Shown here: in pieces, positions 33,667 through 39,289 of the stretch
Numbering within the stretch: position 1 is the stretch's first letter
Layout: the number at the start of each line of letters is the position of its first letter
Origin: Hymenobacter mellowenesis
Lineage (GTDB): Bacteria; Bacteroidota; Bacteroidia; Cytophagales; Hymenobacteraceae
Direction: 5' to 3'
NCBI RefSeq assembly: GCF_030581005.1
Contig: NZ_JAUQSX010000002.1
Location: forward strand, 124,001 to 188,000
Length of the DNA: 64,000 bases
Position numbers and translations under genes: made by a program
Notes under the pieces: model-generated
Told to the model about the DNA's origin: nothing
Database searches by the model: none
What the model saw: the letters and a program-made list of their open reading frames with translations, nothing else

Positions 33667-33694
33667 ATCAGATTGGCTACTTTGGAATGTAAAA

Positions 33695-33729
33695 GCACGT
33701 CATGTCGGGCTTGATGAGACATGACGTGC
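33695..33729. repeat. family A-like short inverted repeat
   Basis: Perfect 12-bp arms (GCACGTCATGTC, 33695-33706; complement 33718-33729) with an 11-base loop, followed by T-rich sequence. It could terminate the ABC cluster on the minus strand. Confidence 0.85.
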
Positions 33730-33751
33730 TGTTTTAATTGCCAACGCAGCT

Positions 33752-34576
33752 CTATGTTTTGCGAATTTCGTCTTTCAGGTGCTCAATGAGCTGCACAAAT
33801 TCCGGCCGGGCCTGAATGCCGGGCTGCCAGGCCAGGCCCATCTGGGCCAGGTTGTACTGGTGCTGCTTGCTGATGGTGGCCCCCGCCAGGCACTGCCCGG
33901 CGGCGTCGCGCTCGGGGCCCAGCAGCCACAGGGTGTCCGAGAGGGCCGTGGTGGTGGCCAAATCGTGCGAAACGATGACGACGGTGTTCAACTCATCCAG
34001 GGTCGTGACTTCGAGGATGATTTTCTTTACCTCGTCAATCATGGCAATGTCGAGGCCGGAAAAAGGCTCGTCCAGGATGATGAGGTGCTCGGAGCAGAGC
34101 AGCTGCTGGGCAATGGCCGCCCGCTGCCGTTGTCCGCCGGAGAGCTGGGCCGGGTACTTGCGCCGGTGCGGAGCCAGGTCGAAGCGGGTGAGGAAGTCCT
34201 CGGCGCGGGCCTTGGCTTCGGCCGGGGCGTGCTTGCGGCCCGCCGCCACCAGCAGGTTGTCGAGCAGGGTGCGGTGGTCGAACAACGGGTAGCGCTGCTG
34301 CACGAAACCCACGTCGCCGGGGCACACCGGGCGCGGCGGGTCGGCCACCAGCACGGTGCCGGTGGTGGGGGGCAGCAGCCCGGCAATAATGCGGCACAGC
34401 ACCGATTTACCGATGCCCGAGCGCCCGTAAAAACCCACCACTTGCCCCTGGCTCAGGCCCGGCCGCACCACGTTGAGCACATCCAGGCTGATGTCGCGCA
34501 GGATGACTTCGCCCCCGAACTGCATGGAAATGTCCCGCAGTGTCAGAATAGGCTCTTTGTAAGAAAAATCTGTCAT
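33752..34576 (-). CDS. ABC transporter ATP-binding protein (taurine/nitrate type)
   Basis: A 274-aa ATPase of the nitrate/sulfonate/taurine importer class. Walker A GRSGIGKS, signature LSGGQRQR, Walker B LIILDEPFSGLD and H-loop VVIVSHD are intact. The C-terminal 50 residues (LAGATISKQHQYNLAQMGLAWQPGIQARPEFVQLIEHL) are an extra tail not part of the minimal NBD. It is translationally coupled to the permease: its ATG shares one base with the permease stop (TAATG). As the last gene of the five-gene cluster it should power the permease, with the OmpA-fused substrate-binding protein as the likely partner. Confidence 0.9.
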   Translation of the reverse strand: MTDFSYKEPILTLRDISMQFGGEVILRDISLDVLNVVRPGLSQGQVVGFYGRSGIGKSVLCRIIAGLLPPTTGTVLVADPPRPVCPGDVGFVQQRYPLFDHRTLLDNLLVAAGRKHAPAEAKARAEDFLTRFDLAPHRRKYPAQLSGGQRQRAAIAQQLLCSEHLIILDEPFSGLDIAMIDEVKKIILEVTTLDELNTVVIVSHDLATTTALSDTLWLLGPERDAAGQCLAGATISKQHQYNLAQMGLAWQPGIQARPEFVQLIEHLKDEIRKT

Positions 34577-35355
34577 TATTTGGCCGCTCTGAGTTCGGAG
34601 TAAGGAAAGAAAGTGCGGCGCAGGAATTCAAACACGTAATCCTGGAGTGCGCCCGTGGCCAGAATAATTAGCTGAATGGCCACTACCCCCGCCAGATGCA
34701 AATAGCGGTTCTGCTTGTAGAGCAACAGGCCGATGCCGCCCTCGGACTGGTAGAGGGTTTCGACCAGCGTAATCATGGTCCAGATGATGGCGAAGTTCTG
34801 GCGCACGACCTCGAGCATTTCGTCGAGCTTGCCCAGCACCACCACTTCGTAGAAACTGCGCCATTCGCTCATGCCCAAGGTGCGGGCGTGGTCCATCTCC
34901 TCCTGGGTGGTCGTGAGAATCACGCTCGTCATGCCCGTGACCAAGTACACGGTAGCCCCGAAGATGAGCACCGAAAGCTTGACCTGGTGGCCCGAGCTCA
35001 CCATCAGGGCCATGAAAAAGGTCAGGCCGGTGAGGGTGAGGTAGCGCATTTTGGAGGCCGCGTAGGCGATGGGCCGGAAAAAGGGCAGCGCCGTGAGGTA
35101 GGAGATGAGCAGCGCCAGCACCGTGGCAATGCCCAGGGCGCCCAACGCGGTGGTCAGGCTGGCCCACAGCTCCTGAATCAGGCCCTGCGTGGTCACCAAA
35201 TCTTTGAAAGAAGCCACCACTTCCCCCAGCGTGGGAAACAGCTGCAGCGGATAAAATAGCCACAGCAGCAGCAGAAAAGCCACCTGGCAGGCCACCATGG
35301 TGAGGAATACGCCCGGCCGCGGCTTGGCATTGGGCACGAATAAGTCTTTTAACAT
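34576..35355 (-). CDS. ABC transporter permease (taurine/nitrate type)
   Basis: A 259-aa inner-membrane permease of the BPD_transp_1 family, about six helices. The EAA loop that docks the ATPase is visible as EEMDHARTLGMSEWRSFYEVVVLGKLDEML. It overlaps the ATPase gene by one base (TAATG), so the two are coupled. Between it and the upstream OmpA-fusion gene there are 149 bases holding a perfect 44-bp hairpin, which may reduce its expression relative to the upstream genes. Class agrees with the ATPase; substrate unknown. Confidence 0.9.
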   Translation of the reverse strand: MLKDLFVPNAKPRPGVFLTMVACQVAFLLLLWLFYPLQLFPTLGEVVASFKDLVTTQGLIQELWASLTTALGALGIATVLALLISYLTALPFFRPIAYAASKMRYLTLTGLTFFMALMVSSGHQVKLSVLIFGATVYLVTGMTSVILTTTQEEMDHARTLGMSEWRSFYEVVVLGKLDEMLEVVRQNFAIIWTMITLVETLYQSEGGIGLLLYKQNRYLHLAGVVAIQLIILATGALQDYVFEFLRRTFFPYSELRAAK

Positions 35356-35386
35356 AGCGGATTGGAAAGGAGGAAATTGAAAAGCA

Positions 35387-35486
35387 AGAACGTCATGCTG
35401 AGCGGAGTCGAAGCATCTCTACCGCAGTAGCAATTCGATTTACTACTGCGGTAGAGATGCTTCGACTCCGCTCAGCATGACGTTCT
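35387..35486. repeat. family A inverted repeat, perfect 44-bp arms
   Basis: Arms 35387-35430 and 35443-35486 are perfectly complementary over 44 bases, with a 12-base spacer: the longest perfect copy in the window. It lies inside the apparent ABC/OmpA operon, between the OmpA-fusion gene and the permease gene. Confidence 0.97.
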
Positions 35487-35504
35487 GGAAGAAGAAAATA
35501 GCGC

Positions 35505-37283
35505 TTAGTTGCCCAGCACAATTTCAACCCGGCGGTTCTTGGCTTTGCCTGCGGGCGTGCTGTTGCTCACCAGGGGCTCGGTGGCGCCGTGGGCATACAC
35601 CTGAATGCGTCCTTCGGGGAAGGCGCTGCTGCTTTTGCGCTCCAGCCACTGGCGCACGGCCATGGCGCGGTCCTCGCTGAGCTGCTGGTTGCGGCTGGGG
35701 TCGCCGGAATTGTCGGTGTGGCCGTGCACGGCCACTTTCAGGCTGCCGGCCACCACCAGGTCATCAAACAACTGGTTCAGCTCACGCTCAGCGGCGGGGG
35801 TGAAGGTGCTCTGGCCGCTGTTGAACTCGATGTTCCAGGCTCTCTTGCTCACGTTGCGGCGGATTTCATCGCCGGCGGCAAACTTCTGGGTTTCGGCCGG
35901 AGCCACGGTCTTACCCTTGTAGCGCTCCTGAATGTTGCGCAGCAGCGTCAGGTCGAGCATGTCGTTCAGCGGCACGTAGCTGGGCAGCTCTTTGGGGTAG
36001 AGCTTGCTCTGCACGTCGCCAAAGGCCTTGTACACCGAGGCGTAGATGTTGGTGCCGCCTTCGTTCAGGCCAAACAGGTTGAGGTTGTCGGCGAAGTTGA
36101 ACACCTTGCTGCCGCCCAGCTCCACCACGTCGCCGTTGCGGTCGGCCTCGCTCACGCCTTTGTAGTATTTCAGCCAGTAGGCACCGTTCTTGTCCTTGTC
36201 GCCATACACATCGGCCGAAATGTCGGCGGCGCGGCTCAGGGCCTCGGGGTGCGATTTCACCTGGTCGCCGGCCACAGCATGGGCCAGCATAATGCCTTCC
36301 ACCTCTTTCTGGTGGGCATCGTACCAGCGCTTGGTGGTCACCATGATGTTGGGCATCTGGTTGGAGTACTCCTTGGTGCTCACAATGCTCACTAAGCCGC
36401 CTTTTTGCTTGGCGATGTTCACGTCGCCGGGCGTCCAGGTGGCCACGGCGTCGGCCACCACGTCCACTTTCACGCCGGTGTTTTTGCCGTCCACAATCTT
36501 GTCGCGGCTTTCGGGCTTGCCGAGGATGTATTTCTCGGCGGCCACCAAGAAGTCACTCGACGACATGAAGTTAACGGCCTGCGGGTCGTAGGTGGTTTCG
36601 TCGGGGTTCACTTTCAGGCCGTTGTCGGCGCACCACTTCAGGGCGATGTTCTGGTCGCCGTCGCGCAGGTAGCAGGCAATGGTTTTGCCCAGCGCCAGCT
36701 TGGGGTTGTCAAGCCACTCTTTCGGGCCCATTAGCTTGTCCTCACCGAAGCTTTTGCCCACCGAGTAGGGAATGATTTGCAGTTGGGTGCCGGCCTTTTT
36801 CAGCTCCGTTTGCACGGCCGAGAAGCCGGGCAGGCCGTCGCCCATGATGCTCACAATCAGGCCCGGGGTGGCGGGGTTGCTCTGCAAGTCCGCCGCGTTT
36901 TTCACCAGGTCAGCCTGCATTTTCGATACGTCGTCCTGGCGCACAATCTGCAAATCCAAACCGTTGGCAGCCATGGCCGAGCCGGTGGTGGAGCGCGGGC
37001 CGCCGTTGGCCAGCATGCCGGCCATCTGGCTGTTCCAGGCCATCACCTCCCACACTACGGGCGTGCCCTTTTCGGCGGGCGCGGTGCCGGGCAGCGGGGC
37101 CAGCGGCACCACGGTGTTCACGCCGTTGCCGCCGGTGGCCGTGGGCAGCTCAATGGAGTTGAGCAACACCGACTCGGTGGCCGCTTTCTTAAAAAGCAGG
37201 TTGCTGGAGGTGAGCTTGTTGATGCCAAAATACAGCCCTACCAGGATGATAATGGCAATGAGAACTTTACCGCGTGTGGTCAT
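35505..37283 (-). CDS. substrate-binding protein fused to OmpA peptidoglycan-binding domain
   Basis: A 592-aa protein. One N-terminal membrane segment (residues 6-22, after MTTRGK) without a clear cleavage site suggests an inner-membrane anchor. Residues about 70-440 resemble a periplasmic substrate-binding protein of the nitrate/taurine/phosphate type (PVVWEVMAWNSQMAGMLANGG, NVSK-like helices, GVKVDVVADAVATWTPGDVNIAK). The last 120 residues are an OmpA domain (IEFNSGQSTFTPAAERELNQL, VHGHTDNSGDPSRNQQLSEDRAMAVRQWL, GKAKNRRVEIVL) with the Asp and Arg that bind diaminopimelate. It could thus link the inner membrane to peptidoglycan while presenting a solute site to the downstream permease. The substrate-binding fold is inferred; the OmpA part is certain. 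Confidence 0.82.
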   Translation of the reverse strand: MTTRGKVLIAIIILVGLYFGINKLTSSNLLFKKAATESVLLNSIELPTATGGNGVNTVVPLAPLPGTAPAEKGTPVVWEVMAWNSQMAGMLANGGPRSTTGSAMAANGLDLQIVRQDDVSKMQADLVKNAADLQSNPATPGLIVSIMGDGLPGFSAVQTELKKAGTQLQIIPYSVGKSFGEDKLMGPKEWLDNPKLALGKTIACYLRDGDQNIALKWCADNGLKVNPDETTYDPQAVNFMSSSDFLVAAEKYILGKPESRDKIVDGKNTGVKVDVVADAVATWTPGDVNIAKQKGGLVSIVSTKEYSNQMPNIMVTTKRWYDAHQKEVEGIMLAHAVAGDQVKSHPEALSRAADISADVYGDKDKNGAYWLKYYKGVSEADRNGDVVELGGSKVFNFADNLNLFGLNEGGTNIYASVYKAFGDVQSKLYPKELPSYVPLNDMLDLTLLRNIQERYKGKTVAPAETQKFAAGDEIRRNVSKRAWNIEFNSGQSTFTPAAERELNQLFDDLVVAGSLKVAVHGHTDNSGDPSRNQQLSEDRAMAVRQWLERKSSSAFPEGRIQVYAHGATEPLVSNSTPAGKAKNRRVEIVLGN

Positions 37284-37382
37284 TTAGAAAAAAGGTGGAA
37301 AATGTGCTGAACGTGGGCAATGTAAGAAGTGAGTAAGTGAGCTGGGGCTGAGAGGGTTCATTTAGCCCATTGTCGTATTCCC

Positions 37383-38384
37383 TTAGTCAAGGAGTTTGCC
37401 GTAGGCGTCGTCAGAGGCTTTGGTAGTGGCCGCCGCGCTGCTGAGGCGCACCGGAGCCTCGTTATCCATAATGGCGTTGAAGTCGCCGTTCTGGTACTTG
37501 CTGAGCAGGGCCTGGCCCTTTTCGGACATGACGCCGTTCTGGATGTCCATCTCCTTGACGAACTCCTGCGAGTAGCGCATGGCCTGCTTAATCTGGCCCA
37601 GCTGCTGGGCCATGTCCTGGGCTACGCGGTCGGTGGCCAGGTCGAAGAAGTACTTCTTGTCCGGGTCGCCGCGCAAAATGTTCATCGCGGCCCGCATGCC
37701 CGAGCTGGTGCGCTTGACGAGTTCGTACTCATCTTTGAGCAGGTTGACCTTAAACTTGGAGCCGTCAATCTGGCGCAGGGCAGCTTTCAGAATCTGGCGC
37801 ATGACCACGCTCACGTTGGCCGTGGTGGTAGCCATGGGCTGCAGGCGCTTGTTGTAGTCTTCGAGCTGGGCGGCGCGGCTGGCGTAGCTTCCGGCCATGT
37901 CCTTCTCGCCCTGGCGGGCGGCCGAATCGGCCAAGGCCAGGTATTCCTGCATCTGGGTGCGGTTGGCGTCCATCTTGCGCTTCACCAGCTGGCTGGCGCC
38001 TTCGATGTGGCCCACTTCCTCCTCCATATTGCGGGCTTCTTTCTCGGTGTTCGAGATGTAGTCCTCCATGATGCCGATGGGGTCAGTGTTCACAAACAAG
38101 CCCGCGGCCGTCCGAAAAATGCGCTGCCCCAGATACCACAGCCCGGCCTGAATGCGCTTATTCGTCGCCAACAAAAACAGCACGAACAGTACCCCCAGGC
38201 CAATGCCCAGCTTCACCGTATCGAAAACGATATCAACCAAGTAGGGCAGAATCTGGCCCCAATAGTACACGCCCATGCCGGCCAACACGGCCACAAAAAC
38301 CCAGGCGGCCACTTTTTCAGGCTTTTGCCAGGAGGGAAGGCCGTCGGATGGCGATGGCGGACCCAGTAAAGGTGTATTCATCAA
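37383..38384 (-). CDS. two-TM protein with long coiled coil (PspA-like look)
   Basis: A 333-aa protein. Residues 24-48 (KVAAWVFVAVLAGMGVYYWG) and about 52-75 (FDTVKLGIGLGVLFVLFLLA) are two membrane segments. The rest is almost wholly alpha-helical and charged, beginning IMEDYISNTEKEARNMEEEVGHIEGASQLVKRKMDANRTQM, with a later helix pair around KVNLLKDEYELVKRTSSGMRAAMNIL. The helical hairpin with repeated Arg/Glu and Ala pattern recalls PspA/IM30 proteins, but the two helical TMs are not usual for PspA and the relation is only by eye. The C-terminus ends in a low-complexity tail. Same operon as the OmpA fusion. Confidence 0.7.
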   Translation of the reverse strand: MMNTPLLGPPSPSDGLPSWQKPEKVAAWVFVAVLAGMGVYYWGQILPYLVDIVFDTVKLGIGLGVLFVLFLLATNKRIQAGLWYLGQRIFRTAAGLFVNTDPIGIMEDYISNTEKEARNMEEEVGHIEGASQLVKRKMDANRTQMQEYLALADSAARQGEKDMAGSYASRAAQLEDYNKRLQPMATTTANVSVVMRQILKAALRQIDGSKFKVNLLKDEYELVKRTSSGMRAAMNILRGDPDKKYFFDLATDRVAQDMAQQLGQIKQAMRYSQEFVKEMDIQNGVMSEKGQALLSKYQNGDFNAIMDNEAPVRLSSAAATTKASDDAYGKLLD

Positions 38385-38402
38385 ACAGGGTAAAGGTTTC
38401 TG

Positions 38403-39092
38403 TTACTTGGCAGTGTTCAAAAAGGCTTCCGCAGCCTTGTGGTGCGCTTGCAGTTCCGACAGCGCGGCGGAATTCGCCAGTTCGTAGCTGGCCAGGGCGG
38501 CCTGGGTTTTCTGGCGCTCCTCGGCCAACTGCTGCTGGGTCTGAAGGAGCTGTTGCTGCTTGGCCTGGAGCTGACGGGTGAGTTCGGCGAGGTCGGCGGC
38601 CAGCTTCTTTTCCTGGGCCGTGAGCTGCACTACCGCGCTGGGCGCTGCACCGGGCACGGTCACCTCGCCCATTTTCTCGCGGTGCCGGCTCAGCACTTTG
38701 TCGCGGTCGGTGGCCAGGGCCTGCTCAAACTGCGACGCCGACGCCAGCAGCGCCGGCACCGTGCTGCCATTCACCGCCGAGAAGGCGTTGAAAGCCGTTT
38801 GGTAGAGCAACGGGCCCGACATACCGGCCGCGGCCATGCTCTTCACCATCTTCATGTAGGCTCCGAAATCCTTGCCATCGCCGGCCAGCAGGCCCGCAAT
38901 GTGGTCGAGGTGGCGTTGTTCGGCCTGCGTCACGGCCGGCGCTGTAAAAGGCGCCGGCGTAGAACCTGCCGCCGTTGGCTGTTGCGAGGTCCCGAATTGC
39001 GTGGTGGGCGGGGTATTCGCCGCCGGCGCCCCTTCCTCGGGCTCAATAAAAAACTCTTTGGCGGCGTGGGTGAGCTTCTCGAAGATTTCCAT
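38403..39092 (-). CDS. hypothetical soluble coiled-coil protein
   Basis: A 229-aa protein I do not recognise. N-terminal 20 residues (MEIFEKLTHAAKEFF) could be an amphipathic helix; then a Pro/Thr/Ala-rich linker (residues 20-50), a helical domain (about 55-135), and a C-terminal coiled coil rich in Gln and Lys (LTAQEKKLAADLAELTRQLQAKQQQLLQTQQQLAEERQKTQ). No signal or membrane segment, so cytoplasmic. It is the first gene of the five-gene cluster, 18 bases before the two-TM protein gene. Confidence 0.75.
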   Translation of the reverse strand: MEIFEKLTHAAKEFFIEPEEGAPAANTPPTTQFGTSQQPTAAGSTPAPFTAPAVTQAEQRHLDHIAGLLAGDGKDFGAYMKMVKSMAAAGMSGPLLYQTAFNAFSAVNGSTVPALLASASQFEQALATDRDKVLSRHREKMGEVTVPGAAPSAVVQLTAQEKKLAADLAELTRQLQAKQQQLLQTQQQLAEERQKTQAALASYELANSAALSELQAHHKAAEAFLNTAK

Positions 39093-39186: not shown

Positions 39187-39194
39187 CAAAGGTA
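39187..39194 (-). promoter_or_regulatory. putative -7 element for the five-gene cluster
   Basis: TACCTTTG on the minus strand fits TAnnTTTG and lies about 95 bases before the first gene of the cluster. No TTG is seen at the proper distance upstream. Confidence 0.3.
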
Positions 39195-39232
39195 AATATA
39201 TTAGCCACTCCGCCGCGCTATAGCCGACGTAA

Positions 39233-39289
39233 AAAAGGCCCTGCCGAACGACCAGCGCCATCGCACTAGTCTTTTCGGCAGGGCCTTTT
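39233..39289. terminator. terminator after the M61 peptidase gene
   Basis: Perfect 15-bp stem (39233-39247, 39275-39289) with a 27-base loop and A-run/T-run flanks. It lies past the stop of the M61 gene (minus strand) and upstream of the five-gene cluster. Confidence 0.8.

Follow-up and report, generated by a model that had tools for sequence, protein, structure and literature searches.

Operons that encode a PspA/Snf7-type protein with transmembrane (TM) segments together with an ABC ATPase, a permease, a PBPB-OmpA protein and an AAA+ ATPase have been described in one sentence of a published paper, with OGG56892.1 as the example (Ravi et al., 2024, mSystems, PMC11237479, section 18). The passages of that paper that deal with these operons report no experiment; they note that one PspA-Snf7 neighbourhood of Bacteroidetes (CBH24266.1) includes a third gene for a coiled-coil protein, propose that the AAA+ protein drives PspA/Snf7-type assembly or disassembly, and associate PspA systems with envelope stress. 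Here we analyse a cluster of related composition at 33752-39092 of a 64-kb stretch of Hymenobacter mellowenesis DNA (the window), where five genes, all on the minus strand, lie in the transcription order coiled-coil protein (cc), PspA/Vipp1-like protein (psp), solute-binding domain fused to OmpA (SBP-OmpA, or SBP where the gene order is given), permease and ATPase. Genomes and loci are designated by G and L numbers, respectively, G000 being the genome of the window.

The window cluster resembles the operon of Ravi et al., as far as it is described there, in co-encoding a relative of TM-containing PspA/Snf7 proteins, an ABC ATPase, a permease and SBP-OmpA. The composition is already in print, function aside, and in view of that section of the paper the impression of the initial annotation, to which no described system of this composition was known, is not supported. 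The two differ in that the published operon has a linked AAA+ ATPase, none of which is found beside the window copy or beside a second copy in the same genome (L039), and in that the window cluster begins with a cc gene, unlike the operon as described. Judged from sequence, what is new here is a C-terminal motif common to all psp proteins examined, the pairing of cc-psp with a Ppx/GppA-like anchored protein, and the unlinked cc-psp pairs of three genomes in which SBP, permease and ATPase genes stand without an adjacent psp (split-system genomes). The main text of PMC11237479 contains none of the terms Ppx, exopolyphosphatase, ASKHA, taurine, NMT1 or 'C-terminal motif', the main text of PMC9239133 mentions neither OmpA nor permease, and a literature search found no paper combining Ppx GppA with PspA, ESCRT-III and OmpA.

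Conservation of the five-gene unit

The five families are a real conserved unit, as far as comparison of gene order and sequence can establish one. An SBP-domain profile (A2), built from four rows that came from three of the 14 genomes later matched, identified 15 loci in 14 of 395 genomes of the class at E<=1e-10, the weakest match having an E of 4.5e-131. The order psp-SBP-permease-ATPase is kept in all 15, and cc can be recognised from its sequence similarity in 14 of them, among which is the window, and from its position in the other (L063); in L067, two additional open reading frames (ORFs) separate psp from SBP. Neither outcome that the initial annotation named as refuting (a lack of co-occurrence of the five families in other genomes, or no PspA relation of psp and no binding-protein fold in SBP-OmpA) was found, and a second full copy (L039, G000:C19:45967-47742) lies about 112 kb off on the same contig, with identities to the window of 56% (cc), 82% (psp), 87% (SBP), 87% (permease) and 72% (ATPase). 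At four Hymenobacter loci the binding domain is 96% identical to that of the window, and in one of these, Hymenobacter sp. CA1UV-4 (L070), identity also reaches 97% in psp and 96% in cc. Against the homologues in G084, identity falls to 37% for the ATPase, 35% for SBP, 33% for the permease, 25% for cc and 22% for psp.

A scan of contigs gave 312 relatives, and 77 of the 80 loci listed are titled Hymenobacter or Hymenobacteraceae. Among 94 loci scanned in turn (L039-L041 and L057-L147; phmmer, E<=1e-3), all five genes were found in 66 and psp together with SBP in 89. Three of the five loci without psp are short of upstream sequence, L078 and L141 running up to a contig end and L147 having about 1.2 kb; the other two are L145 (Fibrella) and L146 (a Chitinophagales metagenome-assembled genome). 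In twelve Hymenobacter loci the cc gene went undetected although the sequence available before SBP was 3.8 kb or longer. In the family, full-length SBP-OmpA occurs in 18 of 60 genomes (13/15 in the genus, 5/45 in others), a count taken from full-length matches only, since a tally of 60/60 consisted mostly of OmpA-only matches and was discarded. In the SBP tree the window copy falls in a 10-member clade (support 0.98) and the second copy in a different one, and going by record titles several species, e.g. H. rubidus, H. caeli and H. terrenus, carry both kinds. Strong psp matches (E<=1e-15) were found in 16 of 395 genomes of a phylum sample, all from the same class or nearer. The overlap of SBP and psp across genomes (P 2e-19) was set aside, since neighbours of SBP had supplied the psp profile; the non-circular evidence is adjacency in loci found through SBP and the presence of unlinked psp in the split-system genomes.

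Protein families, the psp motif and a shared anchor

SBP-OmpA has the three parts that the initial annotation ascribed to it. Its N-terminus is a hydrophobic helix predicted to form a TM segment and lacks a lipobox cysteine. The OmpA end matches PF00691 above cut-off (E 2e-19) and retains the conserved residues of the pattern HTDN...N..LS..RA (HTDN and LSEDRA are present), which include the Asp and Arg that contact peptidoglycan in OmpA-C-like domains. An AlphaFold2 model (44 sequences, pLDDT 74) matches TauA, NrtA, SsuA, CmpA, PqqT and THI5-like proteins (Foldseek, 6ssy at E 2.6e-9 and 2g29 at 1.4e-8) and, at its C-terminal end, TagL/YfiB-type domains; two top rows, to the TssL periplasmic domain in a maltose-binding protein-TssL chain (6aeo), were discounted for TM-scores of 0.21-0.24. 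By sequence the window protein matches Pfam NMT1 weakly (E 0.076). The family can be tied to known binding proteins because the divergent SBPs of two full clusters, L172 and L173, exceed the NMT1 cut-off of 20.5 bits (54.1 and 47.5) and also match an OmpA-free binding-domain profile (E 2.3e-12 and 8.1e-10; next protein 0.34). The latter search repeated their matches to SBP profile A3 with the binding domain alone, thus excluding an effect of the OmpA end. Alignment of a profile that includes both (A9) to Escherichia coli TauA gave E 8e-5 and a probability of 61% (hhalign). When A3 was searched against the PDB, the best 60 of 84 matches all fell on the OmpA end, and of 493 plasmid records returned for SBP-OmpA none covered 80% of it, the 40 matches listed lying in or near the OmpA end.

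The ATPase belongs to ABC_tran (E 2.6e-26) and aligns with E. coli TauB at 72 of 220 identical positions (E 1e-26); its motifs are complete. The permease, in which an EAA-like loop is present, is a distant BPD_transp_1 member below cut-off and aligns weakly with E. coli TauC (E 7e-5). A free or lipid-anchored SBP is the rule for type I importers of the TauABC/NrtABCD type, and SBP-OmpA departs from it in its TM segment, its OmpA end and its missing lipobox.

That psp belongs to the PspA/Vipp1 superfamily, as the initial annotation proposed, has moderate support. The window protein matches PspA_IM30 (PF04012) at E 5.8e-7 and its H. rubidus orthologue reaches 37.3 bits, above the curated cut-off of 33.9. 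Vipp1/PspA structures are among the leading Foldseek rows (probability 1.00, E about 1e-2; 4whe at TMt 0.75), and VIA-align superposes the model on Vipp1 7o3w with a Z of 10.5 and a root-mean-square deviation of 1.4 over 135 residues; the model itself is poor (pLDDT 62). Among PDB sequences psp has a single match, at E 0.97. Two TM segments are predicted in the window psp and its G084 homologue and 2 or 3 in a set of 11 psp proteins. For cc, no Pfam family scored above cut-off, and it is not claimed as a PspA relative, hhalign comparisons with E. coli PspA and with psp being not significant.

In a first set of psp proteins, all 28 terminate, after a variable linker, in [YFI]xx[LFIM][LF] followed by 0-2 residues; when the last 45 residues were shuffled in 1,000 rounds, 0.27 of the 28 did so on average and never more than 3. 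The expression was written after 24 psp proteins had been viewed, and the nine viewed later (4 + 5) also fit, so that the motif is common to all 33 examined; several of these are close relatives, and the lineages are not all independent. It is also found in 45 rows of psp alignment A5, nearly all Hymenobacter. In its place at the end of a linker this motif is comparable to the docking motifs of ESCRT-III proteins.

The distribution of psp extends beyond that of the transporter. Profile A7 gave strong matches (E<=6e-55) at 30 places in 25 of the 395 class genomes, and weak ones (2e-9 to 4e-7) to ORFs of 245-266 aa in 14 further genomes. Fifteen of the strong places lie outside the 14 SBP genomes: two are the complete clusters with divergent SBPs (L172, L173), three (L167, L168, L170) have cc-psp followed by a TM-anchored protein of 348-361 aa, five have cc-psp without an SBP or Ppx-like neighbour (L174, L175, L178, L179, L180), and in five no cc was detected beside psp (L169, L171, L176, L177, L181). 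The anchored protein resembles Ppx/GppA weakly and always below cut-off (L168 E 6.1e-6, L170 3.4e-4), with no match at 0.05 for that of L167. In the split-system genomes psp is encoded elsewhere in three of three (E 8e-66, 9e-65 and 4e-70), accompanied by cc in every case and in two cases by the Ppx-like protein too (L232, L234); in two of these genomes psp had escaped a search with PF04012.

Searched against 455 proteins, a profile built from the N-termini of ten SBP-OmpA proteins matches all five Ppx-like ones (E 1.6e-9 to 1.1e-7), and the best match outside the family is at 0.11. With the L145 and L146 rows removed and 7,911 ORFs searched, all five were still matched (1.8e-5 to 4.4e-4), and the only other non-SBP matches below 0.1 were three Hymenobacter ORFs (2e-5 to 3e-4; next 0.67). 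These three (L069, L071, L072) are again the Ppx-like protein, 65-67% identical to that of L167, and are encoded 67, 88 and 222 nt past the ATPase gene on the same strand in the window's paralogue clade. Because the anchor profile matches Ppx-like proteins that adjoin cc-psp, two domains that are unrelated to each other, and that prediction places in the periplasm in either case, carry a homologous N-terminal anchor and both sit with cc-psp. No Ppx-like gene is present in the window, to which that search was confined.

Some further observations concern these neighbourhoods. The Ppx/GppA-like (ASKHA) proteins (L167, L168, L170, L232, L234; L069, L071, L072) carry the sequence DIGSGNTKISW on the predicted periplasmic side, where ATP is not expected. 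A protein of 167-168 aa with a similar-looking start recurs near psp in L167 (4737-5240), L168 (5076-5579), L169 (6332-6838) and L232 (4479-4982); it has 4-5 predicted TM segments in L167-L169, and the two examples scanned, from L167 and L169, gave no Pfam match. The cc-psp pairs of L174 and L178 lie near an Na/Pi-cotransporter with PhoU domains, recognised by Pfam in L174 and by a similar start in L178.

Candidate mechanisms

The families, domain order, predicted TM segments, ABC motifs, gene order, co-occurrence and shared anchor are computed features, and from them we infer a detailed topology, wall binding, transport, a class of substrate, polymerisation, and docking for both the anchor and the psp motif. 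We tentatively favour, as a reading that falls just short of probable, a type I ABC importer docked to the cell wall and organised by a PspA-like membrane scaffold. The psp protein would be held in the inner membrane by its TM hairpin with the PspA/Vipp1-like coiled coil in the cytoplasm, where it would form a scaffold with cc. SBP-OmpA would join the same membrane patch through its N-terminal anchor, with its binding domain in the periplasm and its OmpA end gripping peptidoglycan, so that the binding site would be fixed between membrane and wall. From there it may pass a small solute, such as a sulfonate, nitrate, bicarbonate or a thiamine precursor, to the permease and ATPase, which would each act as homodimers because there is one gene for each. 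The part of the scaffold would be to cluster and brace the membrane where it contacts the wall. In favour of this reading are the SBP fold and OmpA domain, the NMT1 matches of L172 and L173, the ATPase motifs and EAA-like loop, the PspA/Vipp1 likeness of psp, the constant gene order, the cc-psp pairs of all three split-system genomes, and the anchor homology with the Ppx-like proteins.

Several results weigh against this reading, some of them touching the scaffold and some its union with the pump. The window psp (29.8 bits) and the second copy of H. rubidus (31.2) fall below the PspA_IM30 cut-off, 7 of 13 diverse psp members match PF04012 at E<=0.01, and alignment to E. coli PspA alone is not significant (hhalign, E 0.24). 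The first Foldseek row for psp is a BAR domain and none is below E 0.001, and in VIA-align BAR domains (Z 11-12) and axonemal proteins (up to 13.6) exceed Vipp1. L145 and L146 have more than 7 kb upstream, yet no psp adjoins their transporter genes, so that the genes of scaffold and pump can lie apart. No SBP-permease-ATPase set was found adjoining psp in 9 of the 25 class genomes with strong psp.

The wall-docked importer is nevertheless favoured over three alternatives. It seems unlikely to us that the cluster is a sensor, with SBP-OmpA as a bridge that detects the distance to the wall or a solute derived from it and with an ABC pair that relays this state to a membrane-protecting PspA-like scaffold. 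A binding domain fused to OmpA would be odd in a plain importer, cc-psp also pairs with another anchored protein, and the service of PspA systems in envelope stress, as given in the passages cited above (PMC11237479), would suit a sensor. Transport is favoured over pure sensing because the ABC motifs of permease and ATPase are intact and no regulator or kinase is found among the five genes; the transporter parts are also better conserved than the scaffold between the window and G084, as expected if transport is the constant function. We are more doubtful still of an ordinary importer with an unusual tether, next to which the PspA-like pair would be co-encoded to stabilise the membrane near an abundant complex without contacting it. 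L145 and L146, with SBP-permease-ATPase and no psp, would fit such a bystander, as would the 10 of 15 further psp places without an SBP or Ppx-like neighbour; the anchor shared by the SBP-OmpA and Ppx-like neighbours of cc-psp argues against it, as does the presence of psp even when unlinked (3/3).

A remodelling machine of the ESCRT-III kind, with a psp polymer whose assembly or disassembly is driven by an ATPase (the ABC protein here, an AAA+ protein in relatives), appears improbable. An AAA+ ATPase is linked after the cluster in G084, G286 and G557, strong unlinked relatives of it (E<=1.1e-67) occur in G183, G236, G248, G352 and G508, and the conserved C-terminal motif following a linker invites the ESCRT-III comparison drawn above. 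Against this, a search of five Hymenobacter genomes (G000, G072, G314, G484, G509) found no close AAA+ relative, the best matches (2e-10 to 2e-9) being to ORFs of about 700 aa, and the motif persists in psp proteins without a detected adjacent ATPase.

It is possible, if on balance doubtful, that cc-psp is a general inner-membrane chassis in this class of Bacteroidota: a TM-anchored ESCRT-III-like scaffold to which the shared anchor would recruit interchangeable periplasmic modules, either SBP-OmpA with its ABC pump or the Ppx/GppA-like ASKHA domain, and whose C-terminal peptide would bring in a partner from the cytoplasm, much as ESCRT-III tail motifs do. Bacterial ESCRT-III relatives are known mainly as soluble repair proteins. 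Should the wall-docked importer prove correct, a TM-anchored PspA-like protein, an accessory cc, a wall-pinned pump and, in relatives, a second anchored protein would together make a platform for contact between membrane and wall, and the one shared anchor and one C-terminal motif offer direct handles for tests.

Locus features and relation to known systems

All five minus-strand ORFs called by the initial annotation were recovered (Table 1), as was the TAATG overlap of the last two, in which permease and ATPase share one base. The close spacing it noted holds for that overlap and for cc-psp (18 nt) and does not extend to the psp-SBP and SBP-permease gaps, which from the coordinates measure 99 and 149 nt. 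The genes look like one free-standing transcription unit because hairpins with T-runs follow both the ATPase gene and, upstream of the cluster, an M61 peptidase gene; a gene for a metallo-beta-lactamase-fold protein comes after the hairpin of the ATPase gene.

Table 1. Features of the cluster and its flanks in the window.
Feature	Position	Strand	Description
cc	38403..39092	-	229 aa; conserved N-terminal amphipathic-looking segment M.IF..L..AAK.FF.E; variable linker; C-terminal half rich in coiled-coil-like sequence
psp	37383..38384	-	332/333 aa (333 from TTG; ATG one codon on); TM 25-43, 56-74
psp, further features	37383..38384	-	PspA/Vipp1-like helical hairpin 102-157, 161-234; variable linker; conserved C-terminal motif AYGKLLD
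SBP-OmpA	35505..37283	-	592 aa; N-terminal TM anchor ~3-26, binding domain ~75-465, OmpA domain 487-584
ABC permease	34576..35355	-	259 aa; distant SsuC/TauC relative; EAA-like loop at residues 152-176
ABC ATPase	33752..34576	-	274 aa; TauB relative; Walker A, Walker B, LSGGQ, D-loop, H-loop intact
Near-perfect palindrome between SBP-OmpA and permease genes	35386..35486	-	-95 kcal/mol; member of genome-wide repeat family
Promoter -7-like box (TAnnTTTG), TTTACCTTTG	39187..39196	-	~104 nt upstream of cc start; conserved in window copy's paralogue clade
Hairpin + T-run	39230..39289	-	3' of upstream M61 peptidase gene
Hairpin + TTTT	33691..33730	-	immediately 3' of ATPase gene, likely unit end

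The palindrome makes up most of the SBP-permease gap, and a 20-mer from it recurs in the genome with up to 2 mismatches 238 times forward and 241 times in reverse (reversed control 0). In other Hymenobacter copies (L068-L144 and four further Hymenobacter loci), hairpins with z < -4, scored for the cluster gaps alone, are found in 62 of 74 gaps between SBP and permease, 30 of 42 between permease and ATPase, 44 of 79 between psp and SBP and 4 of 20 between cc and psp. The 74 SBP-permease gaps fall into 18 unrelated blastn clusters, the position of the hairpin being kept and its sequence replaced.

Upstream of cc, TTTACCTTTG matches TAnnTTTG, which we take to be the -7 promoter consensus; a -33 box looked for with it upstream of cc was not found. 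TTTACnTTTG occurs upstream of cc in 9 of the 12 loci that belong to the window's clade or fall close to it. Loci of the second-copy type have a different conserved box, CGGCA[CT]N5TTGGCA, 46-71 nt upstream of cc (at -46 in L081 and -51 in L094), which is present in 0 of those 12; the pattern GGCAC-N5-TTG[GC] is exact in 33 of 50, and by a slightly longer pattern 16 more have one mismatch and 1 has two. It resembles a -24/-12 promoter off consensus, and RpoN is present. The sigma-54 consensus is TTGC, and a sigma-54 reading was not adopted, the box having TTGG instead and showing no genome-wide enrichment (271 matches at up to 1 mismatch, compared with 275 for the reversed control).

Set beside known systems, the cluster shares its SBP fold and its permease and ATPase families with TauABC, SsuABC and NrtABCD, and differs from them in that its SBP is TM-anchored with an OmpA end and a PspA-like protein is co-encoded. 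With the OmpA-C-like wall anchors Pal, YiaD and MotB, SBP-OmpA has in common an OmpA domain above cut-off with its conserved residues; it joins this domain to a solute-binding domain, whereas those of the Pal/YiaD/MotB type join it to a barrel, a lipoprotein or a motor stator. In the psp model a helical hairpin aligns with alpha1-alpha2/3 of classical PspA/Vipp1 (7o3w), and BAR domains align with the model equally well or better. Classical PspA, however, is soluble and without TM segments, whereas psp has two of them predicted ahead of the hairpin and adds, after it, a variable linker and a C-terminal motif of a kind that the end of E. coli PspA lacks.

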